Of a DNA stretch of 64,000 nt, positions 1,984 through 56,645 are shown in pieces. Positions within the stretch are counted from its first letter, which is position 1; each line of letters opens with the position of its first letter. Under the pieces are notes generated by a model that saw nothing but the letters and a program-made list of their open reading frames with translations, ran no database searches and had not been told where the DNA came from. Source of the stretch: Polytrichum commune (taxonomy: Eukaryota; Streptophyta; Polytrichopsida; Polytrichales; Polytrichaceae). The position numbers were made by a program, and so were the translations under genes. The stretch spans positions 16,698,527 to 16,762,526 of the forward strand of contig OX485808.1 in assembly GCA_950295325.1 (NCBI GenBank). Direction: 5' to 3'.

Positions 1984-2476
1984 TCAATCCACATTTGGCA
2001 AGTCTTTAATCATAAGATTTGGGTTTACCAACCCAGTAATTTGTTGCATCCCGGTAAGTGCAATGGTTAATGTGCTTTGGATATCCAACATTTGCTTCTT
2101 CAATTTTTCGTTGATGTCATCTACATAGTTGTGGGCCTCTTTGACTATGTCATCCTTCAAGACCTTCATCTCTTTGTGTAGTTCAAGCTTGAGTTTCTTG
2201 TTACCTTCTTCAATGGCCTCCTTCATGATGGTAAAAACTTCGCTTTTGGTGGCATTCTTCTCCCCTTGGTTTTGGTTTTGGATTGCTTCAATGGTGTTCA
2301 CCAAGCAAGTGTTAGTATCTTCAAATCCAAACTTGACCAACAAATCTTTGGAGGGTTTGTCAATACCATCAAGACTTCTACGATGAGGAGTGATTTTCAC
2401 ATGATAAACACCAATTTTTTCCTCTTTTCCTACAAACTTTTTGTATACAAAGGGGTTGAGGCATTCAACATTTGCA
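1984..2476 (-). pseudogene. LINE C ORF1, C-terminal part
   Basis: C-terminal third of the ORF1 protein of copy C. It begins at the LINE A insertion point with an ECLNPFVY-like segment, continues through ITPHRRSLDG and a helical, charged segment rich in Lys/Glu (EEGNKKLKLELHKEM) that looks like a coiled coil, and ends PNVD followed by TGA. The matching segment of A (12782-13270) is very similar. The N-terminal two thirds lie at 16227-17502; the duplicated CAACATTTGCA shows the two halves were once contiguous. The last codon GTG-GAT-TGA leads directly into the A/C-rich spacer. Function by family: RNA-binding chaperone of the LINE RNP. Confidence 0.8.
2466..2476. repeat. Target site duplication of LINE A (3' side)
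   Basis: CAACATTTGCA, identical to 16227-16237 at the other end of LINE A. The copies lie in ORF1 of LINE C, and removing the insert plus one copy restores collinearity with the uninterrupted ORF1 of A around 13260. Confidence 0.9.
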
Positions 2477-2488
2477 ATAATAACAACT

Positions 2489-2509
2489 TCGGTCTCCGAA
2501 GGAGACCGA
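2489..2509 (-). promoter_or_regulatory. Terminal 3' hairpin of LINE A
   Basis: Perfect 9-bp stem TCGGTCTCC / GGAGACCGA with a TTC loop on the minus strand, about 12 bases from the element's end. The same structure with a TCC loop ends LINE B (56611-56629). Confidence 0.8.
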
Positions 2510-2579
2510 CGTGAATTAAGTGTCTGTTCGATCTACCTTCAATCCCAAGCCCACAGGACAGAGGTATGAAGGAGAAGAT

Positions 2580-2602
2580 CTACTCCCCCCTTTCGAGAGT
2601 AG
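2580..2602 (-). promoter_or_regulatory. Second 3' UTR hairpin of LINE A
   Basis: CTACTC paired with GAGTAG around a roughly 11-base loop containing CGAAAGG. The equivalent in LINE B is at 56517-56536, with the same stem and a shorter loop also containing CGAAAGG. Confidence 0.6.
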
Positions 2603-2686
2603 ACACTTTAGACACAAGAAACCAGTAATGTAACCTACGCCTAATATAATACCCTTTGCCCCTTACCCTAACTTTTAAGTTCTGAG

Positions 2687-5600
2687 TTATGGGGGGTCTG
2701 GATTTTGGGGGAGTGGTTGGTGGTTTTCAATTCTCCTTTTATGGAGGAGAATATACATAGCATATTGTATTGCAATGGTGTTAATATTTTTGAAAGTATT
2801 TTTGATGGTGGCCATAGGTATTTTGAAGTTGGTCTCTAGTGCTTTCATAGATGGGATGTGGGCAGTCGCTCTGGCATCAGCAGTGATAACAATAAGTGGT
2901 TCGATTTTCCATCCTTTGGAAGCAATGCTAGCAATTAGTGAGTTGTATTTATTATTTTTTGCTTCAATTGCTTCTGGGGAGAATCTGTCATTGCAGTATG
3001 TGAATTCAATGAATTGTATGGTAAGGTGAGGGTCGACATCTCTGGGAGGGGCATTTTGATAGGGTAGTCCTTTAACACAGAGGATATCAAGTCTAAATCT
3101 TGCGTTGCAGTGACATCTTTGTGTACTACATGTGCAGGGGAGTAGCCAATTGGGGACTGTGTTTTCTTGGGGGTTGTTATTGAAGGTGCCAGCATTCATG
3201 AGAGTAAAGCATCGGGATTTTTCTGATGAGATTAGGAGCTTCCTAATTTCTCCGACTGCTTTGTTATGTCTTTTAACTCTAAGTGAGTGTATATGTTGGT
3301 GTTTACATGTAAGTAATACATGTATCCATGTATCTGGTTCATTTGAGTTGCATATGGGGCACGTGATAGTGGGAAATCTTTGGTGGCCAAAAAACATTTG
3401 TTTTCTCGCATTCCCCATGTAGGTTCCTGTGCGGAATTTGATGAGGCATGATTTTTGTTTGTCGGTGATAGCGGGATCTGTCCAGAACTCGTTCGACAAC
3501 TCGTTGTCTATCTCTATGTTTTCTGTCCATTTACAGGTGTTGGGGGTTTGTGTGGCCATGATTGGTAGGTTCTTTTCCCTATCATATTTTTTAATTTGTT
3601 TTTCTAAGAATCCAACTGGGCCTTTGTCCGGAACGTCTTCCATCGAGGCCCATACGTCTTTTTGGTAATAGTAAGGGGTGGCGTGGGCATGTTCGTATGG
3701 GTGGGCGGCAATTTTGTGCTCTAATTCTAATCCTTCTTTTGCTAGTTTGTGTGCTTTTTCATTGCCGTCAATGTTGACGTGTGCTCAAACTTTGTATAGT
3801 GTAATTGGTTGTGTCATTTTTTGAAGAATTTTTACCATGGAGGCTAGTGTGGTTTGGTCTGGGTGACTATTATGAAGTGTGGGGTGTTTAATTTGAGTGT
3901 TAAGTAGGTATAATACATTTAGACTGTCTGTGAATATGAATGCGGGTTCGTTGGGATATTGTGTGTTGATGATGCTTAGTGTTTCGTGTATAGCAATCAT
4001 TTCTGCTCGTAATATGTTTTGATGTCCATGTAATCTATTGGCGATGTTTAGCCCTTTGGGGCTGTAGATACCGTATCCGGCTCTTTCTCTTCTCCATTCC
4101 CCAGGGGCTATTTCTTTGGGTTTCATAAAGGAGCCATCAGTGTAGTAGCTGAATTGGGGGTGGAATTTTAGTGGTAGGTTCGTTTGGTAGTTTGGGAGTT
4201 GTGGGGTGGGGGTGTTATTGTTTGGGGGTATCTTTGGGTAATTTGATTTAGACCATTTTTTACTAGAGTTCACTGTGATGTTTGAAGGGGTGGATGGTGC
4301 AATTTGGGTGTGGCTTTGTAATATTTGGAGATTGTCTGCTATGTCCTTTAGTAATTTCATTTGTTTATAGGTGCCTATATTATTGTTTTGGTGGTGGATA
4401 CAAAATATTTGTAGGGTAGACGGTTCTTTTCTTGTAATATTGAGTTCGGGAGGTATTGTGGGTTCTTCATATGCAATCGTATCGGCTGCAAATTGGGCAA
4501 TGATGTGTGTGTCCAAGAATGAACCTATGTGCGGGTTTGGGTTTTTGTACCAGTCGGTATCCGGAGATATAAGTATAGTGATTGTATATGGATCATTTTG
4601 GGCCGCCATGCGAGCCCAGTGAATGGCTTGTTGTAAGTCTGTTGCGTTGTGGGGGTGAGCGTATCCTTTTCCTTGCCATTTGTGGTCGAATGCTTTCCCT
4701 AAGGATCCAAATATTATGTCCCGTGAGAATGGCGAGTAGAATTGGGTGAGTTGCGTGGGGCATGTCACTGGGGATGAGAAGTATGACTGGTTGATATTGA
4801 ATGTGGTTATTAGGAGATCTAATATTGGGGTTGGTATTGTGTATTGGGCACGTTTGAGTGGGTCATTTTTCGGGATTCGGTATTTGTATCTTTGATATAG
4901 CCAAACCATTTCGGTTTCGAAAGATTGGGTGGGCGGTTCTAGACCATGTGTGGTATTTTTTGCCAATTGGTATTGTTTCCATAACCACATTAGTCTGGTT
5001 TTCGGGATGGTGATGAGGTGCCTACCATTATCTTCGTATATGTGAGCGACGTTGAATTGTATTTGGATAGTATCGGAGTTGGTTTCGATGTCATTTTTTG
5101 GGTTACATTCATTAATAAAGATATGTGCTAGTGGGATTATTGTGGTAGGTATGACATATCTTGTGTCTCTTTGTTGTTCGGTGGAGAAGTAGGCATTAAT
5201 AATGTTTGAGAAGTGTTTGTGTTGTCTTTCCGTGTAGTAGTGGGTAAGTAGGACGGTGTTGTGGTTGCATGTGTTGGCATCACAATAGGGGTATAGGTCC
5301 CTTGGGGTTTGCCATTTGTTGCATGTGTGGTTATTTGTTGTAGTCCATTGACATAGGTATGACGTGACTGTTCTTTTTATTCCGTTATGGTCGGTAGATT
5401 GTTTTTGTTTGTGATCAAGTATTTTGTATATGGGATATTGTCGGGGGTCCTTAAGTATGTTGTTGGGGGGAGGGGGTAGAGGGGGGATGGGAGGGTTTGG
5501 GGGGTGTATGGGGGGAGTCGGTAGGTGAGGTAGAATGTTGTGGTGTCTTAGTATATATTTGTCTTTGAGGGATCTGGGTGGATGGTGTCGTTGGCATGGT

Positions 5601-8600
5601 AGGGGGCATTCGGGATTACAGAGAGGTTGGCAAAATAGTTGATTAACGATGTTTAGTGCACTTTGGATGAGTTTGGAAGGGGTGGAGTGGTAGATTTTGA
5701 ATTCGTATAGGTTCATTAGTGTGGTGCCATTAGGCATGGTAATTTGGTCTAGTGTTGTTATATTATGTATGAGCAATTTGTGTAATAGCTTAAGTGAGGT
5801 GTTGGGATTTAGACCCTGTAGCATTTGTGCTTCTTGCATCCACGCGTTTTCGAGTGGGGATGGGTGTAGGAGGAAGTTGTTTATTGTACTTTTAAGGTGG
5901 ACTCCTGCTTCATGCTTGAGCAGAAATAATGTTATAGTAATAGGTGATCTAATACAATGGTAGTATTTAATACGGGTAATTTCTTTAGAACCTCCGTATT
6001 TGGCAAGTATAAATTGCGTTAGGCCGGTATAAATTTTGCCAATTCGGCCTTTATCGTTAAGGGCGTTTTGTAGTTGCTCTCCAATACACCGTAGGTAGGC
6101 ATTTTGTAGTGAAAATGCTTCAATTCCAAATAGGTTGTGGGGGAGTTGTGTAGTAATATTAGATGTGCATTTGGGTATTCCGCATATTGTTTTATGGAGT
6201 GCGATGATCTTTTTGTCAAGTTTTTTTATGGCTGGTATGGAGTATAGTACTGCATAAAAGCTATATGCTATTCCAGCGCGTATGACTGTATCAGCCATGT
6301 TGATTTTTTGTTTCATAGTAGTTGGGCATGCTACGAGGGCTTGATATTGTTTGATTACTTTAGCTGTAGTGGTATTTATTTGTGTTTTCCACTTAAGTGA
6401 TGGTGCGAAATTTATTCCTAGGTATGTGTAGGGTTCGTGTTGGTTTAGGACTGGTATAGGTTGGTTTCTATAGTTTATGTTGGTGGATTGGATTAGGGCC
6501 TTGAAGGTTGTGGGATTAAGTTTAGATTTATTTGGGCATCCAGTTACTGCGCATTTTGGTATTCCTAGATCCATTCCTGCCCATTTGCAGAATTTGTCTA
6601 GTTTATGTAATTGTGTTTGTAGTGTCTCTAGTTTGTTGGCGATTGCTGCAAGGTCGTCTGCATATGCTACTGATGAGATTTTAACTCTCGACGTACCGAA
6701 AGTATATCCATTGTTTCCTTGTTGTAGCCATCTAAGTAGGGGTTGTAGAAATATGATGAATAAGTATGGGCTAAGGGTATCGCCTTGTATTGTACCTCTT
6801 TGGATGTGAATTGGTAGGGTTTTTCCAAAGTGTTCGCCAGCGAATATGGTTGAAGATTGTGAGTATATGTTTCCTATGAGGTTTATTGAGTCATTGGGGT
6901 AACCCAAGTCTTTCATTATGGCTAAGAGTCTGGCGTGGTCAATGGAGCCAAAGGCGTTTTTGAAGTCAATGTAAAGAATGTATATATCTTGGTTTGTGAG
7001 TCTTGCGTCTTCAAGCACTGCAATTAGTATTTGGAATTGTCTGGAGGTGCTTCTTTCTGCTCTGAACCCTTCTTGGCTATCGTGTAGTATTTGGTATCTT
7101 TCTCCGTATGCTGATAGGATAGAGGTTAGTGTACTTGTGTAAAGTTTATATATGGTGTTAGCAAGTGCAATAGGTCTGTGATTCGTTAGTTGTGATTTAT
7201 TACCTTTTTTATATAATAAAACTGTTAGGCTAGTTTTCTATGATGCGGGAATTTGTTTTTGTTTATAGCAGTGCTTAAAGAATAGGAAAAATAATTTGTG
7301 AAAGCGCGGAGGCATATTTTTTAGGATTGAGTTGGGAATTTTGTCTGGACCTGGAGCTTTGTTATTACTCAGGTTTTTAAGACAGAAGTCATAGGTTTCT
7401 TGATCAAAATATGTGTGTAAGGGGATTTGGGGTTCGTCTCGTTTGTCAATTATGTATCCTTCTAAGTCGTGCCATTGGTATTGTCTGACTCCACATGTAC
7501 AGTGTAGTGGATGTGTATTTTGATGGTGGCATGTGGGGACTGTTGGGCGGTTACTGATGGATTGTTGTGCGTAAATCTCTGATGCAATGTCTTCAGGGTT
7601 GGTTAATATGTTGTTTTGTCTATCAATGATGGAGTCAAGAGGTGAGGTTTCAGTGTTTTTGAAGACTTTTTGGTTTATTTTCTTGGGGCTTTTTTCATAC
7701 ATTTGGCGGTATTTCGATACGGCTTTTAGAATGCAGTCTCTAGTATATTTTGTGGTGATTTTTCTGGCTTTTTTATTTGCAGTTTTTGCGATGGCCGCTA
7801 TTGTGTTAATCCATTCATCAGGGGATGCTGCTATAGCGGGTGGGTACGGAATGCTGACGTGTTGGTGGTTTCGGATATCGTTTAGGATGGAGTGCACTTG
7901 CCAGCGTGGATCATGTTGTGCTATGTAAATGGCTTTCCTGATGAGGTGATATGTGTTGAGGTATCTTTTCCATTCTCTAGCTAGTTTACGTGGTAGAAAA
8001 CCACCTTGTTGCGATGTTCTGGTTGTAAGGTTGGGTAGTGGGTTTGCTTTGCAGGTTTTTTCAATTGTTTCTGAGATTTTGTTTATAATGTAGTCCAGTG
8101 ATGTACATACAAGTTGCCATTGATCAGATGTTAAGTGTTGGTGGTTTTCTAATAGTGTGGTAAGTATTTTAAGTTGGGTGGAGTTTTCTTCAAAGAATGT
8201 TATGTTGAATTTTTCTAGGTTTTCAGGTGGTATCGGGTTCAGTATTATAGTTGGTGAGGTGTTTGTAGGGGGTGGGGGTCTGGCTATAAGTGTGTTGTGT
8301 GGGATGTGTAATGTGACTGGATAGTGATCTGAATTTAGATTCATGTTTGTGTTTGTAGTAGAGGTAAATTTGTTGTTGTCTGGGAAGTGAATATAGAAAC
8401 AATCTATTAGGCTTGTTGATGTGTAGTTGTATCCACCTTGTCTGGAGATACTAGTGTTGGTTTGAATATATTCTAAGTTGAGAGATGTGGTGAAGTTTTT
8501 CCATTGGAAGTCTTCTTCTTGTGGGGGGGTGTTAGTGCTGTTATTTTGTCTGCCCCTGAGTGCAATATCTCTGTTAAAGTCTCCGCATAGTGTGTATATG

Positions 8601-10012
8601 TGATTAGGGTGTATAGTGATTTGGTTAGTGATTTCATTCTTAAGGTGTGGGATAAGACATGTGTTTTCTAAGTGCGTGGGAATATACATGTGTATGATTA
8701 GCCAAGGTATTAGTGGGTGGTTATTTATTTTTATTATTTGTAGATATGGGAAGATGTTTGCTGGTGTGGGGATTTTTGTGACATTCCCTGGGAATGCATA
8801 TTTACAATGGATAAATGTAAGTAGGCCACCTCTTCCGGGGGTATAAGGCATCATTTGTTGGATGCACCTTGTGAGTGCGTGTGTGTTGTTGAAAATGAGT
8901 TTGAATTCCGGGAATAGGTTTTGTATATATTTCGTAGATTTGTTTGCAGTAAGTTTGGTTTCTTGGATATGTATGATTGCTGTGTTGTTTTGAGAGTTGT
9001 TTATTAAGCTTTGTAAGTCTGGTAATGATGTGTTGAGTGATGACGCATTCCAAGTTATTATGATTGTTTCATGTTCGGTGTTGGTGTTTATTCTTGTGAT
9101 TGGTGTGGGAGCGGCTGGGAGTGGGGGTGGGTGTGAATATTCGCTGATGTTTTCTAAACATCTAAGTGTTTCAGCTATCAACTAGTTTGGGAGGAAAGGG
9201 AATTATTTCTTAAGGGCGGTTGATGTGGGTGTGGTTACTTGGTTGTGGATGAATTCGTATATTTTTGTGTGTATTGAATTTTGAGGGAGTATTATATGTT
9301 GATTGTTTTCTATGAATGTTGTGTAGGGGTGCGGTGTCAGTATGTGTCGCTCGGGGGGGTTGGTGAGGTTAGCTAGCCTAATGATTAACGTGTTGGTCCA
9401 TATGTTATTAAAGTGGTAGTTTTGGGGTTGGACTAGCATGTTATTGCATATGTCTATTGCGGGGTGGATGGTAATAATTAGGGCGTATAGCATATGGGTT
9501 GGTGGCGACTGGTTTTGTGTTTGGGTATAATGGTGTAGATGTGGGTATGTGGTGATTGCTTGGAGGTGTAGTGGGTGTGTGTGTTTTAGGATAGGGGCGA
9601 ATGTATTTGCTAGGTGTTGGTATTCAGGTTGTAGTTTTATAGTATTTGGGATAAAATACGTGTTGGCTCTTTTTTTGCGTGTAATAGGGTGTGTTCGTAG
9701 AATATCAGGCATTGGTCCCGGGTTAAGTTCGATATCTCCGCATTTTAGTAGATCTAGTATGTCAATGAAGTAATATCCGTAGAATTGAAGTGTTTTTGGT
9801 TTTCTCATATTTATTTTAAGATATTTCAAACATGTGAATTTGGTTGTGGAAAAGAGGTTAGGCATAGCGGGAGTGGTTTTTTCTACTAGTTCGGGTGAGA
9901 AGTGTGACGTTGCATTGTTTGTAGGTAGTGGGTTTGTTACTGAGTTAGGTTTCCAATTTTTTATGAAGTGGTATGTGTTATTTATGTGGCGAGGCCGGTA
10001 GGCCGAGGCCAT
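2687..10012 (-). pseudogene. LINE A ORF2: 2A - APE endonuclease - RT - RNase H - CCHC polyprotein (four nonsense codons)
   Basis: One reading frame of 2,441 codons from the ATG of MASAYRPRH (10012) to a stop at 2687, with no frameshift but four in-frame stops: TAA 9203-9205, TAG 9182-9184, TAG 7238-7240 (Trp in B) and TGA 3785-3787 (Arg in B). Approximate residues: 1-99 N-terminal module; 93-100 DIELNPGP; about 315-570 APE endonuclease (TWN, QETKL, GDFN, SDHYPV); about 900-1300 RT (KAPGPDKIP, DFKNAFGS, GDTLSPYLF, YADD); about 1970-2140 RNase H (TDGSF, AEM, TDS, then GNEKAH where an Asp is expected); about 2215-2240 finger CPIC...H...C. It would nick target DNA and copy the element RNA by target-primed reverse transcription. 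B's ORF2 is almost the same length. Confidence 0.9.
9713..9736 (-). other. 2A-like ribosome-skipping motif in LINE A ORF2
   Basis: Codons read LLKCG then DIELNPGP, matching the 2A consensus D-(V/I)-E-x-N-P-G-P exactly, preceded by a short hydrophobic helix-like segment (YYFIDILDLL) as in known 2A sequences. In 2A peptides the ribosome fails to join Gly to Pro and continues, giving two proteins. Here a 99-residue N-terminal peptide would be separated from the endonuclease-RT part, which would begin P-MPDILR. Skipping itself is inference from the motif. Confidence 0.85.
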
Positions 10013-12781
10013 TTTGTTATTTGGGTAGGGATTGTATTTTGAATATGGGTGTTTATGTTTTTGGTAGGGTTTGTATTTAGGGTGTAGGTGGTGTTTGGAG
10101 TGGGGGTAAGGTGTGGGGTTTAGGTACAAGTTGTATGTAGGGTGAGGCTTGTGAGATTTTGAGTTGGATTGGGTTTCTTGTTTTGGTTGGTACCAATACG
10201 GTTGTTGGTATTTGTGTTTTGGGTATATTTTGGCTTTTGGATGAAGTATATGTTTTAGGTGGACTCTATGGTTTGGATGAAGCTTATCCCTTGGATGAAG
10301 ATTGTGCTTTTGGTGAGGGCTATATCTTGGATGAGAATAGTATTGTGGGTGGGACCGAGGTATTTTTTGTTTTGGGTAGGAATCTTGTTGTGGGGGGGGG
10401 GGGGTGTTATATTTCCTAATTGATTGGGTGAAGGGCGTGTTTTGTTTGTTTTTAGGTTTTTCATGCTTATGGTTTTAATTATGGTAATCGGGTTGGGTGG
10501 GGTGTGTGTGATGTTACTAGGTTGTTTAGGTGCGAGGGAAGGTTTAGGTTTTGGTTGTGTATTGTGTTTAGGATGTAAACTATGCTTTGGATGTGGTTTG
10601 AGTTTAGGGTGGAATCTATTTTTTGATGAGTACTTGTATTGTGAGAGAGGCCGTTGTATTTTTTGTTTTGGATGGGTGGTAAAATTTGGGTGTGTAGGGT
10701 GTTGTGCTCGGGGGTTGTATTTTGTGTAGTTGTTAGTGTAATTTGGTACATTTATAAGTTTAATATTTGATGTACTTGAGATAGTAGGGAAGTATCTATA
10801 TAGGTTAGTTGTTTTTGGTTGTGTCTTACTTGGTTTTTGATTTTTGATGAATGTTAGTTTTGTTGTAGAGGGGATGTGGTGTAGGGTGGGTATTATGTTT
10901 TCTTGTTGTTTAGATAAGGGGCGTGTGTTCACATAGTATTTAGGTACTTGATTTGTTACTAAGGTAGGTTTCCAATTGGTGAGGTGATTTTTTCGGTTAG
11001 TTTTGTGGCGAGGCCGGTAGGCCGAGGCCATTTTGTTTGTTGGGTGTTGTTTGTATTTTGAGTAGGGGTATGGTTGTGAGTGGGGGTAGAGTACGGATTT
11101 TTGTCGGGGTTTATGTTTAGGATGTAGTCTATTTTGTTGGCATGCTTTTAGGTTAGGGTAGGTTCCTTGTTCATGATGTGGGTTATGTTTTGGATGAGAT
11201 ATATGTGTTGAGTGGCTTATGTGTTTTGGATGGGATCCATATCTTGGATGAAGGTAGTTCATTGGGTGTGGTATGTGTTTTGGGTACTTTCCGTAATTCA
11301 GGGCGTGTGTAATGTTACTTGATTGTTTAGATGTGAGGGGGGGATTTAGTTGTGGGTGTGGCCTATATTTTGGATGCGGTTTGGATGTAGGATGAAGTTC
11401 GTTTCTTGTGAGGTACCTACATTGTGAGTGAGGCCGTTGTATTTTGTGTTTTGGATGAGAAGTATAGTTTGGATGTGTGGTGTGTTTTGTTCGGAGAGTA
11501 TGTTTTGGGTTGTTGTTGTGTGAGTGGTTAGTGTAATTTGGTTTGTTTATAGATATTTGATTTACTTTTGTTGTACTTGAGGTAGAGGGGTAGTATTTAT
11601 GTAGGTTAGTTGTTTTGATTTTTGGTATTTTAATGAGTGCGCGGTTAGTTTTAGAGGAGGTGTGATGTAGGGCAAGTATTATGTTTCTTGTTGTTTGGTT
11701 AAGGGGTATGCGTTTGCATCGTGTTTAGATATTTGGTTTGTTATTGGGGTAGGTTTCCAATTAGTGAGGTGGAGTTTGCGGTTAGTTTTATGGCGAGGCC
11801 GGTAGGCCGAGGCCATTTTGTTTGTTGAGTATTGTTTGTACTTTGGGTGTGAATGATGTTTAGGATGTAATTTATTGTCTTTAGGGATGTACGTTGTTAT
11901 TGTGCGAGGTTTTTGATGCGTACTTGATATACTTGATGTAATGAGGTAGTATTTATATAAGTTGAGTATCTTTGGTTTTTTCTTATTTGGTTTTTGATAT
12001 TTGGTGAGTGCAAGTTTTGTTATGGGAGGGATATTGGGTAGGGTGGGTATAATGTTTTTTGGTTGTTTGGGTACGGAGTGTAATTTTGCATGGTTTGTTG
12101 GTATTTGAATTGTTATTGAGTGAGGTTTCCAATTATTTATGAAGTGATGTTGGCCATTAGGATTGTGGTAAGGCCGGTAGGCCGATGCCATTTTGCTTTT
12201 TGGGTGTCTTTTGTGATTGAAATAGGAGTTAGGGTTTGAGAGGGGACAGGGTTTGGGGTTTAGATGTGGGTTGTGTTTAGAGTGAAGTTTATTTTGTAGG
12301 TGTGGTTTTGAGTTGGGATGTGTTGCTTGTTTTGGGTGTGAACTATGTTTTGGATGAAATATGCGTTTTAGATGACATCCGTTCGTTGGATGGAGTATGC
12401 ATTTTGGGCACTTACCGTATTTCGTATGGAGATTGTTTTTTGAATGAGGTGGGAGGTATTTTGAGTTGAGGGTATGCTTTGTGTGACCATTGTACGTTGA
12501 ATGGTAGTACTTTCTATGTTTGTTGTTTTGTATGTGGGGATTGTATTTTGGTTTGAGTATTGGGTATGTAGTTTTTTGTTGTATATTGTATTTATTCGGG
12601 TATATGAGACATATTTTGTATTTGTATTCCATATGGTTTTTTGGGTGTTGTAGAATACCTTCTTTGTTGTTATGGTATTTTGTAGTTATTCTAGTATATG
12701 TTTCATGTATATGTCTATATATGTATATATGTATATGGTAGTATTGTGATAAATACTTTTTTATTTCTTGGCGGTTTGTGG
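10013..12781 (-). repeat. LINE A inter-ORF spacer with three upstream copies of the ORF2 N-terminal module
   Basis: 2.8 kb between ORF1 and ORF2, A/C-rich and G-poor on the element strand, with imperfect short repeats (CCCAAAACACAA- or CATCCAAAG-like, giving Pro/Lys/His-rich frames). It holds three extra module starts, each ATG followed by codons for ASAYRP: 12191, 11816 and 11031, besides the ORF2 start at 10012. Each continues with a recognisable NWKP...TN...IIPTL...TTKL...KPK...LY-YY series but diverges before the 2A motif. Frames after each module are open for hundreds of bases without clear function. I read this as duplicated 5' ends of ORF2 inside an unstructured leader. Confidence 0.7.
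10391..10404. repeat. Poly-G tract
   Basis: Uninterrupted run of about 13 G on the plus strand (C on the element strand) in the LINE A spacer; prone to length errors in sequencing. Confidence 0.8.
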
Positions 12782-14587
12782 TCAATCCACATTTGGTTGG
12801 TCCTTTAGCATAAGGTTTGGTTTAACCACACCCGTAATTTGTTGCATTCCCGTAAGTGCCAAAGTCAAGGTGCTTTGGATGTCCATCATCTATTTTTTGA
12901 GTTTATCGTTTATTTCATCCGCATAGATGTGTGCTTCTCTTACTATGTCATCTTTTAACTCCTTCATATCCTTGTGGAGTTCAAGTTTGAGTTTTTTGTT
13001 ACCTTCCTCAATGGCCTCTTTCATGACGGTAAGAACATCCCCCTTTGTTGTACTTTCTTCTCCTTGTGTTTGGTTTTGGATGGCTTCAATTGTGTTTACC
13101 AAACACGTATTAGTATCTTCAAAACCAAATTTGGTTAGTAGCTCTTTGGGGGGTTTGTCATTACCATCTAGGCTACGGCGGTGTGGGGTAATTTCCACAT
13201 GGTAGGCCCCAATTTTTGCTTCTTTACCCACAAACTTCCTATACACAAAGGGGTTGAGGCATTCCACATTGGCACTCCCATTGTGTCTCAAGCCATCTTG
13301 CTTGTGGAACCAAATGGATACCACATTTTTGGTTCCTAGTACCTTGCAAATTTCAAGGGAGGTGTCTTCAATATTCATCAAAATGGGGAGGTTGTAGAAA
13401 GTTAGGGTAAGAGCCTCTTTCCTTGCCTTTTGCTCCATAGTAAGAGAGGGGCCCTTTGTTACTTGCCCATCAAGAATTTGGTGGTGTGTGGATATTTGGA
13501 GGGTTTGTATTTTCTTAGCTTGTAGGGGGGTAGGAGCAACAATGTAGGCATGGTTGTTAGCGGTGGTCTTTTGTACTTCTACAATTTCAAAGTTATGACC
13601 TCTTCTAAAGCTATTTTCAAGGATATCAAGAAAGAGAGCATGAGATGTCAATCCTACTAGAGTGTCATTTGAAATTTTGATGGAGAGGTTGTTATTCCTA
13701 GCAATGGAGTGATATGATTTACATACCTTGCCTAGGCTTCCAACATTTGAGTGGGGCTCAAGGTGGAGAATGAAGGGTCTAAGACCCGTGAGTAAGGCTA
13801 CTCCATCGGTTTGGGGGTGAAGGAGGTGGAGTTTGACTATCCCAGCCCAAACGCCCTTAACCCCTCCTCTCTTGATACTCATGCATAGAACCGAGATAGG
13901 TTCGATGAGGTTAGTACCTAGTGGAATGTGCATGTCATTTAGCCTCTCTTTAACAAGCTCTTTGACATGGTTATGAAATAGGGGGTTGTTGGGGAGTTGA
14001 AAATGAATGGCAATTTGAAAGTCTAAGGACATGCAAGAGATGGGGTCAGTTTCTATCTCTGATGGGAGTTGAGTGAGGTTAAGATGTTGACCCGGTAATC
14101 CATCACTTCTCTCACTTGGGTACAAAGTTTGTGGCACTCTTGGGTATGAAATGCTTACACTCTCTAATTCCTCGGCTTCCTTACGGGGGATGCCTCTTGT
14201 GGTTCTATCAGCAATGGTTTCATCATTAAATAACTCATCAATTCCTTGTTCAATTGCAAGTTTTTCCATGACTTCAAATCCTAACCATAATTTGAGTTTT
14301 GGGTCTGATGTGGGCTCTGTGGCATGAACTACATTGCGGGGAGAAATCACCTTGTGGGAATTCGAGGGTGAGGATGTCCCGGCCCGGTCTCTAGCTCTCT
14401 TCCCATTGGCTGCAGCTCGGGCATTTGTTTTGGCCTTCTCTGCAAGGAGTTTCTTTAGGCTCTGAGTAGGCGAGTCAATCTCCATTATGTCTTCCTCGTC
14501 ACCAAAAACCTTTGCTAGGGTTTTCGGAATCAGGTCCCTTCCCTCCATGTTGTTGTTGTCTCGGGGAGGGGCTCTTGACGCGGCCAT
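12782..14587 (-). pseudogene. LINE A ORF1: RRM-like and coiled-coil RNA-binding protein (one amber codon)
   Basis: About 600 codons. I choose the start at MAASRAPP (14587) because it aligns with the MASPST start of copy C and the conserved MEIDSPTQSL segment follows; the open frame upstream to 15724 is the in-phase tandem repeat leader. The central region is conserved in all three copies (LWLGF, YHSIARNN, HNFEIVEVQK). Next comes an RRM-like stretch (LTLTFYNLP as RNP2-like, GSANVECL as RNP1-like), then ITPHRRSLDG, then a Lys/Glu-rich coiled-coil candidate. A TAG at 12890-12892 replaces a Gln codon of copy C and removes the last 35 residues, which otherwise continue to TGA at 12782. Expected role: binding LINE RNA in the RNP. 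Confidence 0.8.
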
Positions 14588-14699
14588 CTCAGCTAAGTTT
14601 GGGCTTCGGGGTCTGCTTCTGCTTGTGGGATCTGCAAGGTCGGGGCTGTGTGTGCTCTGGTACCGCTCTCCTTTCTCTGGTTCGGTGCAGTCACAGGTG

Positions 14700-15480
14700 T
14701 TTCGGTGTTGCTCACTTCCCCGAGTACAATGTGTATGAGATCTGCCTGTACTGCTAGGGATTACTCCGCCTCTTCTCCAGCTCCACTCGTTGTCTCGGTG
14801 TAGAATGTAGCCTCTGTTTCGGTGATGGGTTTGTTGCCCAGTGAGCTCGGTGCCAGATTCGGTGTAATCGCAGGTTGTCTGATCTTCCCGAATATGTGTA
14901 TGAGATCTGCTTGTACTGCTAGGGATTACTCCGCCTCTTCTCCAGCTCCACTCGTTGTCTTGGTGTAGAATGTAGCCTCTGTTTCGGTGATGGGTTTGTT
15001 GCCCAGTGAGCTCGGTGCTAGATTCGGTGTAATCGCAGGTTGTCTGATCTTCCCGAATACAATGTGTATGAGATTTGCCTGTATTGCTAGGGATTACTCC
15101 ACCTCTTCTCCAGCTCCACTCGTTGTCTCGATGTAGAATGTAGCCTCTGTTTCGGTGATGGGTTTGTTGCCTAGTGAGCTCGGTGCCAGATTCGGTGTAA
15201 TCGCAGGTTGTATGATCTGCAAGGTCAGGGCTGTGGGTGCTCAGGTACCGCTCTCCTTGCTCTGGTGCGGTGCACTCACAGGTGATTCGGTGTTGCTCAC
15301 CTTCCCGAATACAATGTGTATGAGATCTGCCTGTATTGCTAGGGATTACTCCACTTCTTCTCCAGCTCCACTCGTTGTCTCGGTGATGGGTTTGTTGTCC
15401 AGTGAGCTTGGTGCCAAATTCGGTGTAATCGCAGGTTTTCTGATGCTGCTCTACTCTCTGATTGCAGTGTGTGCGAGATC
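14700..15480 (-). repeat. About 167-bp tandem monomers in LINE A leader
   Basis: The phrase GGTGATGGGTTTGTTG recurs near 14820, 14986, 15154 and 15382. Spacings are about 166, 168 and 228 bases, the last containing an extra segment. Units contain repeated TCGGTG words, which also dominate the 5' array of copy C. Confidence 0.85.
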
Positions 15481-15757
15481 TGCCTATTTTGTTGTGGGTT
15501 ACTCCTCTTCTGCGTATGTCTCGATGTGGGGCGTCGTCTTCTTTGTAATCTCCTTGGATTTCTTCTACGACACCCTTTCTGCAACCTCTTCCGCCTTCTG
15601 CAACGATCCCTTCTTGCGCTCCACTATCTTGGGTCGATGGTTCTCCCACCAGTGGATCGGGCTTGTAACAAGGGTTTAGTTCTAGATCTAGGGGACATGC
15701 ATCTATGCTATGTTTGAAAAGCAAGATAAATGTATTAATGATATAAATGAAAGAGAA

Positions 15758-15776
15758 AAGGAGCCTTCGGCTCCTT
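15758..15776. promoter_or_regulatory. Hairpin in LINE A 5' leader
   Basis: Stem AAGGAGCC / GGCTCCTT with a TTC loop. It has the same stem-triloop design as the terminal 3' hairpin but a different stem sequence. Confidence 0.6.
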
Positions 15777-16226
15777 CTATGCGACTCTCTGGCTATTGCT
15801 GAAACTGTAATTCTGGTACAATGTGACGATCGGAAGTATCAATGTGCCTGAGTCCTGGGTGTTTGCTACCTCTCCCGCCGTGTTTGCATAGAAATCTCAG
15901 ATCTAGATAACTACAAGCAAAAATGAAGTTTTAATCTCAATCACAACCAATCGGAGCCCCAACTCTTTCAGAGTACTCTTCCCCTTGAGATCTAACTATC
16001 ATTTACACGCTTGAGTCTCTAGATCTGGGACTTTGAGCATTCACAGGTACCCCTCAACACATCCAATCACCTCTTCAAACACCCTGACCATCTGTTGTCT
16101 AGTGTATGCGGGGTCACTGCGAGGCCAGCTCCTGGCAGCACACGCACTAGTCTCCAGCGGCTTACTTCACAATCTCACGCCATACCAGAAAATACAGAGC
16201 CCTTAGCAGCTCCTCATCCGTGAATC

Positions 16227-16237
16227 CAACATTTGCA
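16227..16237. repeat. Target site duplication of LINE A (5' side)
   Basis: CAACATTTGCA, identical to 2466-2476. It marks the 5' boundary of LINE A at 16226. Confidence 0.9.
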
Positions 16238-17502: not shown

Positions 17503-17693
17503 GTTTGAATTGGGGACACGATGGGTAGCCGCTCCTTCTTTGTTGGTGTTGCCTTTGTGTCCTTTGCCTCAAACACCCTCCCTTGGCAATCTCCTTAATC
17601 TTCACAGCTACAAGCTCACAATCTCCCGAATTCTTGTTGTCTTGGTGTAGACTCGGTGCTTACCTTGCTGTCTTGGTCCTGGTGTAGACTTGG
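17503..17693 (-). repeat. LINE C 5' leader array, part 1
   Basis: Short leader next to ORF1, entering the TCGGTG/CTTGGTG repeats that resume at 24737 on the far side of the gypsy insertion. Confidence 0.65.
17689..17693. repeat. Target site duplication of gypsy element (left)
   Basis: CTTGG, repeated at 24737-24741 (the bases after the right LTR read CTTGGTGTTG). Five-bp duplications are typical of LTR retrotransposons. Confidence 0.85.
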
Positions 17694-18666: not shown

Positions 18667-18680
18667 CTCACCCCCACCAA
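18667..18680 (-). promoter_or_regulatory. Polypurine tract of gypsy element
   Basis: GGTGGGGGTGAG on the minus strand directly before the 3' LTR, the expected plus-strand primer site. Confidence 0.75.
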
Positions 18681-23761: not shown

Positions 23762-23763
23762 AG

Positions 23764-30340: not shown

Positions 30341-30375
30341 GCCTCAAATCCTGCAAAATTAGCTTCAAGCTCTAC

Positions 30376-46434: not shown

Positions 46435-46435
46435 A

Positions 46436-48049: not shown

Positions 48050-49036
48050 ATAAGCTCACCACTTCAATACCAAAAAGATACCAACAAAAATCAAATAAAA
48101 AGGTATTTATAAATACCCCCCTCAAACAAGAAACACTTATCAAAAAATCCAAAAATAGAAACAAAACTAATCATACACATAAATATATAAAACCAATACA
48201 TATCACAACACATAAAATACTTACCCCTAACCTTATTAAACTATTTATCTCAACTCTTGAACAAAACCCCTTAAAACTATATACCAAAACAACTATATAC
48301 CAAACCGAATACTAAATCAAATACCAAAATCCAACCAAACAACAAATCAAATACCAAACCAAATACCTACATCTTTTCAAATACCAACACCAAATAAAAT
48401 ACCAAATAAAACACCAAAACCAAACCAAATACCAAATCAAATACCTTCTCCAAATCAAATACAAAACCAAGTACCAACACCAAAACAAACACCGAAACAT
48501 ATACCAAACTAAATACCAAACCCAATACCAATATCTAAACCAATACCCAACCAGATATCAATACAACCACCAACACCCACAACTATACCAGCATCAAAAC
48601 CACCACCAACACCCAAACCTCCACCAAAACCATCACCAAAACCAATATAAAAAACAACACCAAACCCAAAACCCAAAACTAACAACAAAACTCCCTGTGA
48701 CATACAACTACCACCCAATATTACCTAACTTATTTTTTACAAGCAAATACACACTTATACAAAATCACAAAATAGCCGACTCAAAAATTAAACAATACCA
48801 CAAACACTACTTCATCAACAACAACGCTATAATAAAATATTACACAATAATACTAAATACCATACAAAAAATACACATAAACACAATATTCAATAATACT
48901 CCAACTAAAACAAAAACCAAAACCAAATCACTTACCAAACACGTCAAAAGTAATAACCAAACAAACAACACAACCAGTAATAAACCTACAAAATACCACC
49001 AACAAGTGCCTTATACACCTGGGAAAGGCGGATAAA
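48050..49036 (+). repeat. LINE B A/C-rich spacer
   Basis: About 1 kb nearly devoid of G, built of ACCAAATCAAATACCAAA-type words with 12-18-bp loose periodicity. It is shorter than the 2.8-kb spacer of A and has only one module box, the one starting ORF2. A VPYTPGKGG-coding patch ends at 49035, just before the ORF2 module. Confidence 0.7.
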
Positions 49037-52000
49037 ACGGCCTCGGCCTCCCGGCCTCGCCACAAAACTAAAAACAAATACCAATTCACAAACATCTGGA
49101 CACCCAACACAATAACAAATAACGAACCTAAAAGCAACACAAGTACACACTTTCCAACTTTCCAACTAGCAAACATAATACCCGCCTTACCTAACCTATT
49201 TACTACAACTAAGTTCATACTCAATAAATATCAAAAAATACATAAGAAAAAACCAAAATTACTTCAACTCCACGGATACTACTTCATCAATAAATTAACA
49301 TTATTACAATGCGGAGGAGATATAGAACCTAACCCCGGACCAATGCCTGATATCCTACGCACACACCCTGCTACACATAAAATGAGACCCAAAACATATT
49401 TTATCCCAAACACAATAAAATTACAACCAGAGTACCAACACATAGCAAACACGTTCGCTCCCATACTAAAACGGAATCACCCACTACATCACCAAACAAC
49501 CATCATATATCCACACCTACATCAATACATCCTAACACAAAGTCATTCCCAATCAACTCATATACTATATACTTTAGTCATTACAATAAACCCCTTAATA
49601 GACACATGTAACAACATATTAGCCCAACCCCGCATGTACCACTTTAACGACATATGGACCAACACACTAATCATTAGACTGGCCAACCTTAACAACCCTC
49701 CCGAGTGACACATTCTAACACAACACCCATACACAACATTTGTTGAAAATAACCAAGATATAATACACCCCAAAAATTCTATACATACCGAATTATATAA
49801 ATTTATACACAACCAAGAGACTCCACCTACACTAACCACACTCCAAAGGAAATTCTTCTTTCTCCCTGTAAAACTGATTACCGAGTCACTCCGGTGCTTA
49901 GAAAACATAGATGAATACTCACATCCACCTCCACTTCCAAACATCCCCACACCAGCCCCAAGAACAATTACAAACTCTAACCACGAAACAAATATAATAA
50001 CATGGAATGCCTCGTCACTTAAAACAGCCTTACCAAACCTACAAAGCTTAATAAACCATTCCTTTAGCAACATAGCGATTATAAATATCCAAGAAACCAA
50101 ACTCACAGCAACTAAATCCACTAAATACATTCAAAATCAATTCCCTGAATACAAGCTCATTTTTAACAACACACACGCCCTCACAAGATGCATATAACAA
50201 AGAATGCCTTACACCCCCGGTAGAGGTGGTCTTCTCACACTTATTCATAACAAATACGCATTTTCTGGAAATGTTATCAAGATACCCACACCAGCAAATA
50301 TCTCCCCTTATCTACAAATAATAAAAATACACAACAATCCACTCCTGCCATGGATAATCATACATATGTATATGCCCACACACGTAGATGACACCCACCT
50401 CATTCCCTACCTCAAACCACAATCACCAACCAAATAACTGCGCACCCAAACCACACGCACATTTTATGTAGATATTTTAATAAAGATATTGCACTTACCG
50501 GAGGACAAAATAACAACAATCACACGGTACCACAAGAGGACGACATCCAATGGAAAAACTTCACTACAACCCTAAATCTAGAATATATTCCAACAAACAC
50601 TAACTTTTCAAGACAAGGAGGTTATAATTACACGTCAACCAGCCTTATAGACGGTTTCTATATCAACTCACCAGATAACAACAGATTCGCCTTTACAACA
50701 ATCACAAACATAAATCTAAACTCAGACCACTATCCAGTCACCTTACACATACCCCAAAACTTACTTATTGCTAGACCACCACCCCCCGCAAATATTACAC
50801 CAACTAGAATACTAAATCCAATCCCGCCGGAAAACTTAGAGAAATTTAATATAGAATTTTTTGAAGCAAATACCACGCAAGTAAACGAACTAACCATCCT
50901 ACTAGAAAATCACAACAACCTCACCCCTGATCAATGGCAAGAAGCTTGTACAGCATTAGACAACATTGTAGAAAAAATTTCAGTTATCATTGAAAAAACC
51001 TGCAAAGCAGCCCCAATACCAACCCTTACAAATAGAACAGCTCAGCAAGGTGGCTTCCTACCACGAAAACTATCCAAAGAATGGAAACGACACCTCGACA
51101 CATACCATCTTATTAGAAAAACAATATATATTGCAAGAAACAACCCACACTGGCAAACTCATCCCATTTTAAATGAAATCCGTAACCACCAACATGTGCA
51201 AATTCCACATCCACCTACAACAACCACTCTCCCAAATGAATGGATTGACACCATAGCCGCTATCGCAAAAACCTCCAATAAAGAAGCCAGAAAAATCACC
51301 ACAAAATACACCAAACAATGTATTCTAAAAGCCGTATCAAAATACCGCCAAATGTATGAAAAAAGTCCCAAAAAGATAAATAGGAAAGTCTTTAAGCACT
51401 CCGAAACCTCACCCCTCGACTCCATCACGGATAGACAAAATAACATATTAACCAATCCTGAAGATATTGCAAAAGAAATATACATTCAACAATCCATCAG
51501 TTATCGGCCAACAGTATCCACATGCTACTACCATAACATTCACCCACCACATTGCACATGTGGCGTTAGGCAATATCCATGGCATGACTTAGAAGAATTC
51601 ACGATTAAACAACGGAGAGAACCCCAAATCCCCCTACACACATACTTTGACCAAGAAACATACGACTTCTGCCTCAAAAACCTAGGAAATAATAAAGCCC
51701 CAGGACCAGACAAAATTCCTAATTCAATCATAAAGAATATGCCTCCACGTTTCCACAAGCTACTCTTTCTATTCTTTAAACACTGCTACAAACAAAAACA
51801 AATCCCCGCATCCTGGAAAACTAGTTTAACGGTTTTACTATACAAGAAAGGTGATCCATCACTACTTACTTACCATAGACCTATTGCACTAGCTAACACC
51901 ATATACAAATTATACATAAGCACATTAACCTCTATTCTCTCAGCTTATGGTGAAAGACACCAAATACTGCATGATAGCCAAGAAGGATTCAGAGCAGAAC

Positions 52001-55000
52001 GAGGAACATCTAGACAACTTCAACTCCTCATTGCAGCATTAGAAGACGCAAGATTTACGAACCAAAATATATATATCCTCTACATTGATTTCAAAAACGC
52101 TTTCGGTTCCATTGATCATGCAAGACTCTTAGCCATAATGAAAGACCTTGGATACCCAATAGATGCAATAAATCTTATCGGAAATATATACATACAATCC
52201 ACTACTATATATCTTGGAGAATACTTCGGCAAAACCCTACCCATCCCCATTCAAAGAGGTACAATACAAGGAGATACTCTCAGCCCTTACTTATTTTTAA
52301 TATTTTTAGAACCCCTCCTTAGATGGTTACAACAAGGTGACAATGGATATACCTTTGGAACTTCCAAAATTAAAATCACATCCGCAACATATGCCGATGA
52401 TCTAGCAGCGATTGCCAACAAATTAAAATCATTACAAACACAACTAAACAAATTAGACAAATTCTACGAATGGGCGGGAATGGACCTTGGAATACCCAAG
52501 TGTGCAGTGACCGGATGCCCTAACAAATCTAAAATGAACCCCATAACATTCAAAGCCCTGATTCAATCCACTAATATAAACTATAGAAACCAACCATTAC
52601 CAGTCCTAGATCAACACGAACCATATACCTATCTGGGAATCAACCTCGCACCATCTCTTAAATGGAAAACACAAATTAATACCACTACAGCTAAAGTTAT
52701 TAAACAATGCCAAACCCTTGTAGCATGCCCAGCCAACTTGAAACAAAAAATCAACATGGCAGATACAGTCATACGTGCTGGTATAGCCTACAGCTTTTAC
52801 GCAGTACCATACTCTATTCCGGCTATCAAAAAACTCGATAAGAAGATTATAGCACTTCATAAAACAATATGCGGATTACCAAAAAACACATCTAATATCG
52901 CTACACAACTCCCGCACGATCTATTCGGAATTGAAGCATTCTCTCTACAAAATGCCTACTTGCGTTGTATCGGAGAACAACTACAAAATGCCCTCAATGA
53001 CAAAGGTAGACTCGGTAAAATCTATCATGGCTTAACACAATTTATACTTGCAAAATTTGGAGGTTCCAAAGAAATAACCCGCATTAAATACCATCATTGT
53101 ATTATATCACCTATCACTAGAACGCTATTCCTACTTAAACATGAAGCCGGAGTCCACCTAAAAAATACAATAAATAGCTTCTTATTAAACCCATTCACAT
53201 TTGAAACCGCATGGTTGAAAGAAGCTCAAAACCTACAGGGCCTAAACCCCAACACTTCACTTAAATTATTACAAAAACTTCTATTGCACAATATAATAAA
53301 ATTAGAACAAATAATCATGCCCAATGGCACAACCTTAATGAACCCAGACGACTTTAAAATATACCACTCCAATCCTACAAAACTCATCAAGAGTGCATTA
53401 AACATTGCGAATCAACTATTTTGCCATCCTTCCTGCCACCAAGAATGCCACCTACCATGCCCACACCATTAACCCCCACGAACCTTAAAGAATAATTACA
53501 CAATAATAAATCATACCATCCTCCCCCAACACCCAACCCCCCCTATACACCCCCCAAACCCCCCTATCCCCCACCTACCCCCGCCTCCCAACAATATGCT
53601 TAACAACCCCCGTCAATTTCCTATACACACAATACTAGATCACAAACAACGACAACTCATAGATTCTAACGGGATTACAAGAAATGACACATCATACCTA
53701 TGCCAATGGACTACAACAAATAATACCAAATACAACAAATGGCGCACCCAAAGAGATTTATTTCCCTATTGTGATGCCTATACTAGTTGTCACAACACCG
53801 AACTACTTACCCAATATTATACGAAAAGGCAACACAAACACTTCACAAATATCGTCAACGCATACTTCTCCACGGAACAACTAAGAGATACTAGATACGT
53901 TATCCCTGCCACAATAATTCCATTAGCACATATCTCCATTAATGAATGCAACCCAGAGAGTGACATCGAAACAAATACTAACACTATCCAAACACAATTA
54001 GACGTCGCTCACATATATGAAGACAACGGCCGGCACCTCATTACCATCCCAAAAACTAGACTACTGTGGCTATGGAAACAATACCATCAAGCTAAAGATA
54101 CCCCACATAGTCTAGAACCACCTATCCAATCATTTGAAACTAAAATCGTGTGGCTATATCAAAGGTATAAATACCGTATTCCTAAAAATGACCCACTTAA
54201 ACGTGCCCAATATACTATACCAACTCCAATACTAGATTTCCTAATAACAACATTTAATATCAACCATTCAAACTTCTCATCCCCAATTATTTGTTCCACA
54301 CAATTCACCCAATTCCACTCACCATTCTCTAGGGATAGAATATTTGGATCCCTAGGAAAAGCATTTGACCAAAAATGGAAGGGAATTGGTTACGCCCACC
54401 CCCATAACGCAACAGACTTACAACAAGCCATCCATTGGGCCCGCATTGCGGCCAAAAACGACCCAAATACAATCACTATACTTATCTCAAAAGATATGGA
54501 TTGGTACCATAACTTTAACCCATACACTGGCCCATTCTTAGACACACACATCATTGCCCACTTTGCAGCAGACACCATCATATACGAAGAACCCACAATT
54601 CCCCCTGAACTCAATATCACGAGAAAAGAATTATCAACACTACGAATATTTTGTATCCACCACCAAAACAATCATATCGGTACCTACGAACAAATGAATC
54701 AACTCACCAACATAGCAAATAACCTCCAAATATTACAAATTCACACACAAATTGCACAAACCACCCCCTTAAATACCGCCGTTAATTCTAGCAAAAAATG
54801 GGCTAAATCTAATTATCCAAACACACCCAATAATAATAACATACTTATTCCACAATTCCCTAATTACCAAACCAACTTACCATTAAAATTCCATCCATAA
54901 TTCAGCTACTATACAGACGGTTCTTTTATGAAACCCAAAGAAATTAACCCTGGAGTATGGAGAAGAGAAAGAGCTGGATATGGAATCTATAGCCCGAAGG

Positions 55001-56368
55001 GCCTTAACATCTCCAAAAGACTACATGGACTCCAAAACATACTACGAGCAGAAATGATAGCCATACATGAAACACTAACAATCATTAATACACTATATCC
55101 AAACGAACCCGCATACATATTTACCAACAGTCTCAATGTATTATACTTACTCAATACACAAATTAAACACCCCACACTTCACAATAGCCACCCTGACCAA
55201 ATCACCCTCGCCACCATGGTACAACTACTTCAAAACCGAATACAACCAATCACACTATACAAAGTCAGAGCACACATCAACATTAACGGCAACGAACAAG
55301 CAGACAAATTGGCAAAAGAAGGGCTAGAACTAGAGCACAAAATTGCCATTCACCCATATGAACATGCCCATGCCACCCCATACTACTACCAAAAGGACGT
55401 TTGGGCCTCAATGACGGACGTTCCTGATAAAGGCCCCGTTAGATTCCTAGAAAAACAAATTATTAAATACGATAGGGAAAACAACTTGGAAAGCATGGCC
55501 ACACAAACCCCCAACACTTACAAATGGACAGGAAATGCAGATATAGACAAAGAACTTTCTAACGAATTCTGGGAAAACCCGGAAATCACGGATAAACAAA
55601 AATCATGCCTCATCAAATTCCGAACAGGAACCTATATGGGCAATGCTCGAAAACAATTGTTCTTCGGTAGACAATCATATCCCTCTATTACATGCCCCAT
55701 TTGCAACTCATACGAACCGGACACGTGGTTACATGTACTACTTATGTGTAAACAACAACATATACATTCACTTCACGTCAAAAGACACAACAAAGCTGTA
55801 TGGGAAATTAGGAAATTACTAATCTCATCTGAAAAATCTCGATGTTATATTCTCATGAACGCTGGCACCTTCAATAATACATCCCAGGAAAACACCGTTC
55901 CCAATTGGCTACTCCCTTGCACATGCGGTACACAAAGATGTCATTGTAACTCCAGAGTTAGACCTGACATCCTTTGTGTTAGAGGATTACCGTACCAACA
56001 TGACCCCCCCCACAGACATGGACCCCAACCTCACCATACAATTCATCGAATTCGCATACTGTAATGATAGATTCTCTCCAGAAACACTCGAAGCAAAAAA
56101 TAACAAATATAAACCATTAATTGATAGTATCGTTGCTAGAGGATGGAAAGTTGATCCCCTTATTATAATCACCGCAGGCACTAGAGCCACTACACACATT
56201 CCTTCAATGAAATCACTCGAAAATAAATTTAAAATACCTATGCCTATCATTAAAAATACTTTTAAAAACATCAATACTATCGCTATTAAGTATGCCATGT
56301 CTATCCTCCTACACAAAAGAAGAATAGAAAACCACCAACCCCTGCCCCAAACACTAGACCCCCCATAG
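49037..56368 (+). pseudogene. LINE B ORF2: 2A-like - endonuclease - RT - RNase H - finger polyprotein (damaged)
   Basis: Same order and almost the same length as in A (7,332 against 7,326 bases). Damage seen: start codon ATG changed to ACG (49037); TGA at about 49706-49708 (Arg in A); one-base frameshift near 50415; endonuclease GDFN changed to RYFN near 50475; stop at 53470-53472; TAA at about 54898-54900 (Gln in A); RNase H TDS changed to TNS near 55123; frameshift in a C run near 56005. RT is intact over a long stretch (51196-53472), with KAPGPDKIP, DFKNAFGS, GDTLSPYLF and YADD. The RNase H GNEQADKL Asp and the CPIC...H...C finger are present. This copy cannot encode an active protein. Confidence 0.88.
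49319..49342 (+). other. 2A-like motif in LINE B ORF2
   Basis: Codes DIEPNPGP after a LTLLQCGG segment. It keeps D-I-E-x-N-P-G-P, the x position being Pro here instead of Leu in A. It lies at codons 95-102 of ORF2, close to codons 93-100 in A, and is again followed by MPDILRTHP. Confidence 0.8.
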
Positions 56369-56645
56369 ATAAAGCCATAAAACTTTAGTAACTAAGCCAC
56401 TCTACTCCATCCACTAACAAATGCACTAGCGACTTGGCGACCCAAACCATACTAACAATCCCCCCTAAAAACTAACCATTTTGGTTCTTGTTACTAGTAA
56501 CTGGTGACTATAGTGTCTACTCACGAAAGGGAGTAGTAGATCTTTACCTCCATACCTTTGTGCTGTGGGCATCGGATTGGAGGAGGATCGAACAGACACT
56601 TCATTCACGTCGGTCTCCTCCGGAGACCGAAGTTTTTCTTCTTCT
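56369..56645 (+). promoter_or_regulatory. LINE B 3' UTR with two hairpins
   Basis: Hairpin 1 at 56517-56536 (CTACTC / GAGTAG) and terminal hairpin at 56611-56629 (CGGTCTCC, loop TCC, GGAGACCG), then GAAGTTTTTC and TTC repeats. Outside these blocks the UTR differs from A. Confidence 0.7.

Follow-up and report, generated by a model that had tools for sequence, protein, structure and literature searches.

A probable StopGo/2A signal near the N-terminus of ORF2 in dual-endonuclease LINEs

The peptide motif DIELNPGP, encoded on the minus strand of the 64-kb window (the whole stretch of DNA analysed here), most probably acts as a StopGo/2A signal that fixes the N-terminus of the ORF2 protein among the LINEs of a large dual-endonuclease clade (Dualen/RandI type). 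We assign this reading a probability of about 0.83. 2A-type peptide signals are known from viruses, where the ribosome releases one protein and then continues with the next, and how the ORF2 protein of a LINE is made from an RNA with two ORFs is an old question. 2A and 2A-like sequences reportedly occur in APE-type non-LTR retrotransposons, namely in L1Tc of Trypanosoma cruzi and in elements of sea urchin and other animals, observations that are said to go back to Heras 2006 and Odon 2013. If the reading is correct, dual-endonuclease LINEs would join the elements that use a native 2A, and so, probably, would the plant lineage. A single genome would then provide skip signals in hundreds of natural copies, with the skip residues clearly under selection and the leader showing none, so that the role of 2A in retrotransposon expression could be tested directly; biotechnology would gain many new 2A sequences, among them Gln variants. 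No report of a 2A sequence in Dualen/RandI elements or plant LINEs, nor any paper combining 'Dualen' with '2A-like', was found in the literature searched, most subscription papers lying outside its reach. According to a recent survey, there is no evidence that plant viruses use 2A (PMC12846837); further sources are PMC12747079, PMC8623073 and PMC12371167.

The motif and the element that carries it

Two copies of the element, A and B, lie in the window, and NPGP occurs in its six frames at their two sites only:

9713..9736, minus strand: 2A core DIELNPGP of copy A, with the expected skip between Gly 99 and Pro 100
9713..9805, minus strand: hydrophobic stretch plus 2A core, codons 70-100; amino-acid constraint between copies A and B begins about here
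49319..49342, plus strand: 2A core DIEPNPGP of copy B

Both sites had been picked out by an earlier, sequence-only reading of the window and are confirmed. Counted from an in-frame ATG at 10012, DIELNPGP occupies codons 93-100 of ORF2, and DIEPNPGP lies at nearly the same codon, with one extra Gly codon ahead of the Asp. Both copies carry the (D/G/C/N)(V/I)ExNPGP core of StopGo/2A sequences. The hydrophobic stretch that had been described ahead of the motif is present, contains Leu (copy A reads GYYFIDILDLLKCG up to the core) and is also found in relatives. When compared by eye, DLLKCG before DIELNPGP matches the Leu-rich context class ending in (A/S/C)G ahead of the Asp, as given in section 10 of PMC12846837. 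The motif resembles motifs 2 and 6 of that paper, which form a viral Leu-rich StopGo class, in that a Leu-rich hexapeptide with CG or SG at its end precedes the Asp at p12, but differs from them in residing in a cellular mobile element and in carrying Gln at p14 in one subfamily. In 60 order-2 Markov simulations of the window, the core appeared in none and NPGP 0.47 times per simulation.

The architecture of the element supports the position proposed for this 2A-type motif, close to the N-terminal end of ORF2 in a LINE and ahead of an APE endonuclease and a reverse transcriptase (RT):

2687..10012, minus strand: ORF2 of copy A, a single frame of 2441 codons interrupted by four stops (9203-9205, 9182-9184, 7238-7240, 3785-3787)
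10010..10012, minus strand: candidate ATG of ORF2, 99 codons to the Gly; Met 92-93 codons ahead of the core in six of seven related loci
8318..9058, minus strand: APE-type endonuclease, codons 319-565
6407..7201, minus strand: reverse transcriptase, codons 938-1202 (RVT_1, E 1.8e-29)
4664..4945, minus strand: PCIF1_WW-like region, codons 1690-1783
3728..4150, minus strand: RNase H, codons 1955-2095 (E 2.4e-11)
2690..3445, minus strand: CCHC motif and R2-type restriction-like endonuclease (RLE), codons 2190-2441
12890..15724, minus strand: ORF1 open frame of copy A
2477..16226, minus strand: copy A, full-length insertion of about 13.75 kb
16227..16237, minus strand: 5' copy of the 11-bp target-site duplication TGCAAATGTTG
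2466..2476, minus strand: 3' copy of the target-site duplication
2490..2508, minus strand: 3'-terminal hairpin of copy A, also in copy B at about 56611-56629
48160..56643, plus strand: part of copy B aligning with copy A (76% nucleotide identity)
46106-48049, plus strand: ORF1 of copy B

Description of the element as a LINE with endonuclease and RT was sound, but has to be corrected with regard to the endonuclease, because an APE and an R2-type RLE are both present. The two together, the latter recognised by its fold, are the hallmark of the dual-endonuclease Dualen/RandI type, a group that combines an APE with an R2-type RLE (PMC4640811, PMC3636483). The APE was found although Pfam models reported none in the window protein. 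The N-terminal region 1-315 had no match in the protein collection, and the predicted fold of the post-2A region was uninformative (pLDDT 34).

Copy A keeps its frame to the end despite the in-frame stops, two of which (codons 270 and 277) fall between motif and endonuclease; copy B also has in-frame stops and loses its frame within the endonuclease. An intact ORF2 protein cannot come from either copy as they stand, and their broken downstream parts count against the 2A reading. Stop-codon reassignment was dropped as a cause of the stops in copy A, because its four stops include all three kinds and because stop-free long frames exist among the copies. A PCIF1-like region (window 4433-5035, minus strand, ORF2 codons 1660-1860) was matched in six of ten aligned members. 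The matched region belongs to the cap methyltransferase part of PCIF1; since the window copy aligns HPHN where PCIF1 has NPPF, it is predicted to be probably not catalytic. Tandem repeats of 165 bp (window 14623-15511) lie within the open frame, ahead of that part of ORF1 which is conserved.

Conservation of the core and selection on it

The pattern [DEG][VIM]ExNPGP yielded 276 matches in the 407.8-Mb genome and three in the reversed control. The 100 matches listed in contig order, which represent contigs C1 and C2 up to 64.14 Mb and to which classification applies, all represent one and the same site in this LINE clade: by position, 44 fall inside close-family hits; by tblastn, 55 of the other 56 resemble P0001 (101-700) on the same strand; in the remaining one (L049), an insertion comes after the shared flanking peptide.

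NPGP has not been lost from most other copies of the family. The exact core was kept in 44 of the 51 close-family copies found with a 308-aa ORF on C1 and C2 below 64.14 Mb, hit counts being lower bounds here and in all copy searches of the genome, and copies not being independent events. The seven non-exact copies were one residue off each (four with GDIKPNPGP, one each with GNIEPNPGP, NRGP and NPRP), and GNIEPNPGP lies within the expanded 2A motif of PMC12846837. When the search was made free of the motif by using a query that begins right after NPGP (L040:1040-1939; seed excluded), the exact core was directly adjacent in 43 of 52 copies in the same range, and in 16 of the 20 hits that were new relative to the close-family list. 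Among the nine non-exact cases, one was offset by 13 nt, one was split by an insertion, five were among the seven close-family copies just described, and L079 and L080 carried GDIKTNPGP. These two, together with 17 copies from beyond the listed 64.14-Mb range, were read base by base, which gave 11 exact cores and eight with one or two core changes, one being a stop. Core changes are therefore common (7/51 close-family copies, 8/19 read copies), and this counts against the 2A reading.

The broken state of copies A and B would suit a chance match, or a relic confined to two dead copies. We consider this scarcely credible: it is contradicted by the genome-wide counts (276 matches against three) and by the purifying selection described below, as well as by the occurrence of [DGCN][VI]ExNPGP in six of 106 RT relatives, where 0.0018 were expected.

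A deeper subfamily was collected with the post-2A region of L054 as query. Twenty L054-type copies were read, 15 picked by eye from hits on C1 and C2 without an exact core and five from other contigs, chosen for long open frames or high identity. The site was recognisable in 19 of them, with Gln at p14 in ten (near-duplicates L111, L112 and L121 included), His in six and Glu in three; L107, L110, L114 and L117 have a change within NPGP, and the frame is broken in L124. His at p14 is an active 2A variant, and Gln is not among the variants named, according to section 9 of PMC12846837. One locus, L063 (C2:36079500-36082400), bears two 2A cores, at 998 and 1799, which are 801 nt apart in one open frame and both of which precede post-2A sequence of the same kind, possibly a double-2A polyprotein.

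Purifying selection acts on the 2A peptide in frame, while the leader ahead of it is without amino-acid constraint. Between subfamilies, 19 read copies were compared with 18 close-family copies (the two window copies, six best hits, the seven non-exact copies and three motif-found ones, L009, L014 and L016), the latter anchored on the site by a pattern allowing its seen variants, with none lost. The core without its free x had an amino-acid identity of 0.89 and a pN/pS of 0.07 at a pS of 0.70; for codons -60 to -15 the corresponding values were 0.10-0.12 and 0.93-1.02. In three within-family pairs, pN/pS was 0.72-1.06 in the leader, 0.18-0.28 at the site and 0.11-0.26 after it. Between copies A and B, 35-codon windows gave 0.72-1.26 upstream, 0.60 at codons 30-64, 0.47 at 50-84 and 0.32 at 70-104. 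Codons 86-105 show three amino-acid changes per 11 nucleotide changes, which 63 of 20,000 random placements matched, and codons 1-70 look random (1770/4000 random placements).

In a rival reading, a conserved, translated peptide would act without skipping, for example as a hydrophobic signal, an anchor or a pause site. The hydrophobic stretch ahead of the motif in the window and in relatives would agree with this, as would the 2A-like N-termini of sea urchin NLR proteins, which serve as signal sequences when skipping fails (PMC4981915). We nevertheless hold it to be quite improbable, given that the constraint falls on D-I-E-x-N-P-G-P with x free, and that neither a signal nor an anchor needs NPGP.

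The leader and the route to ORF2

Ribosome skipping at the motif is well supported as a prediction from these comparisons. In the 2A mechanism that we infer, along with translation of the leader and the route by which ribosomes enter it, ribosomes would arrive through the long AC-rich leader between ORF1 and ORF2, which is open in frame and not conserved in sequence. Entry could be through a leader AUG, through re-initiation or through a frameshift near the end of ORF1. At Gly-Pro the nascent leader would be released and synthesis would resume with Pro as the first residue of a protein comprising the post-2A region, APE, RT, PCIF1-like region, RNase H and RLE. Because the 2A would discard its product, the leader could change in both sequence and length, provided that it remained open. 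It is long, open and unconserved, and apparently disposable. In copy A it includes:

9737..10474, minus strand: leader in the 2A frame, 246 codons, stop-free
10764-, 11684-, 11921-: upstream repeats of leader part 9745-10044

The three further leader-region repeats between ORF1 and ORF2 of copy A (window 9745-12400), each with a block like AAAATGGCCTCGGCCTACCGGCC, resemble promoter monomers.

In the 2A frame, 578 stop-free codons precede the motif in L099, 576 in L100, 357 in L101, 246 in copy A, 146 in copy B and 43 in L102, as against 9-24 stops per 300 codons in the other two frames of these six copies. None of 2000 Markov simulations was open as long as L099, L100, L101 or copy A; one reached copy B and 325 reached L102. 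Across 61 loci, mostly motif-found and with at least 900 nt upstream, the roughly 300 codons ahead of the motif contained on average 7.2 stops in the 2A frame versus 16.5 and 15.6 in the others, and 13 loci were stop-free in the 2A frame versus 0 and 0. Note that a mean of 7.2 stops, together with the short openings of L102 (43 codons) and copy B (146), also means that not all copies have an open leader, which counts against the 2A reading. In L099 and L100, the 2A-frame opening starts 91 and 80 nt, respectively, before the ORF1 stop. L101 has an early stop in the ORF1 frame, and copies A, B and L102 show no such overlap with ORF1.

These data bear on a more specific proposal, namely that the ORF1-ORF2 interval is a stop-free, sequence-indifferent corridor, translated from at or near the ORF1 end and stripped by the 2A so that the ORF2 protein starts at the same proline, and that Gln-p14 variants are active though outside the published motif. 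To this combination we give somewhat less than an even chance; the corridor is whole in two of the six copies examined and partial in others. A frameshift near the ORF1 stop, yielding an ORF1-leader-ORF2 polyprotein that is split by the 2A, would be a form of the 2A explanation and does not exclude it. The overlapping openings in L099 and L100 are in its favour, but we judge it unlikely, as the frame relation to ORF1 differs (2 in L099, 1 in L100), the AUG of the 2A frame that overlaps the ORF1 stop in L100 suits re-initiation better, and the overlap is missing from copies A, B, L101 and L102.

Alternatively, ORF2 might start at a Met directly after NPGP, leaving the motif in untranslated sequence. 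A Met stands there in 19 of 19 copies of group X, and also in group Y, although the anchor for Y required it; moreover, the 146 open codons that precede the motif in copy B include no in-frame ATG. This start is very improbable in view of the pN/pS of 0.07 for the core in the 2A frame and of the upstream frame being open beyond chance in copy A and L099-L101. Furthermore, that codon is L, I, S, P or F in the majority of the L054-type copies read (it is M in L108), and V, A, I, N, I and G in relatives.

Returning to the 2A reading, release of a 99-residue peptide, as earlier proposed, appears doubtful. Six of seven long loci keep a Met 92-93 codons ahead of the core (L075 lacks it); however, since the open frame reaches further upstream (its length is 246 codons in copy A and 576-578 in L099 and L100) and the leader lacks amino-acid constraint, the released peptide would not be a conserved product. 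Taken as a whole, the sequence-only reading stands for the motif and its place in ORF2, and is revised for the element type, for the 99-residue peptide and for the plant origin, which is no more than likely on the basis of one gene fragment and the Copia search described below.

Relatives of the element and other features of the window

In an RT tree of 32 chosen rows of 89, none of them named Dualen, the window protein groups with dual-endonuclease relatives and two green-algal proteins (98/89). The element shares APE, R2-type RLE with CCHC motif, RT and RNase H with Dualen/RandI, and the green-algal proteins in its RT clade are from Haematococcus and Pleodorina. A cysteine protease domain is typical of Dualen/RandI. 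Josephin was found in five and OTU in two of ten aligned members (A1), and neither of these domains of its relatives gave a Pfam match in the window protein, its post-2A region included.

Five of the six core-bearing RT relatives (P0007, P0017, P0031, P0052, P0064) lie inside the clade, in favour of the 2A reading, and one (P0089) outside. Downstream of the core, P0052 and P0064 match Josephin, as does P0007 at a level below Pfam's cut-off; P0017 matches OTU, and P0031 has an OTU-like GDGNCLFN by eye. The leaders of seven core-bearing proteins align mutually over 12-32 residues only, and a 2A site stands at the end of every such stretch; in P0007, a leader alignment also ends at a second, altered 2A site (GIEPNPGE at 305). 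Three observations count against the 2A reading: only the six of 106 RT relatives bear the core, within the clade it is present in just five of the 32 rows with 450 or more residues ahead of the endonuclease, and P0002, the nearest relative, is without it. A single ancestral 2A in the clade is possible; on a quick tree the label is scattered, with six changes for seven rows. With the 2A-bearing elements of the L1Tc and animal type, the window element shares a D[VI]ExNPGP-type core in frame with non-LTR retrotransposon proteins (PMC11512398, PMC5972666, PMC12846837 and PMC4981915), but differs in having an APE plus an RLE, a long open unconserved leader and a large plant-like genome as its host. 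Viral contigs gave 43 pattern matches, none confirmed, and no match was found in plasmids and phages.

Elsewhere in the window, no tRNA genes and no matches to Rfam families were found. A Copia-type element (27026-31338) has gag and pol frames interrupted by stops; a search with it gave one contig at 89% over half of the query, further contigs at up to 62%, and named plants mostly at 33-42%. A 976-bp direct repeat, 100% identical between 17693-18668 and 23763-24738, looks like the LTRs of a recent insertion. Finally, an inverted pair of segments (33728-36857 and 57531-60647) is 91% identical; the former carries a fragment of a short-chain dehydrogenase (SDR), and the best PDB match of the SDR exon is salutaridine reductase, a poppy enzyme.
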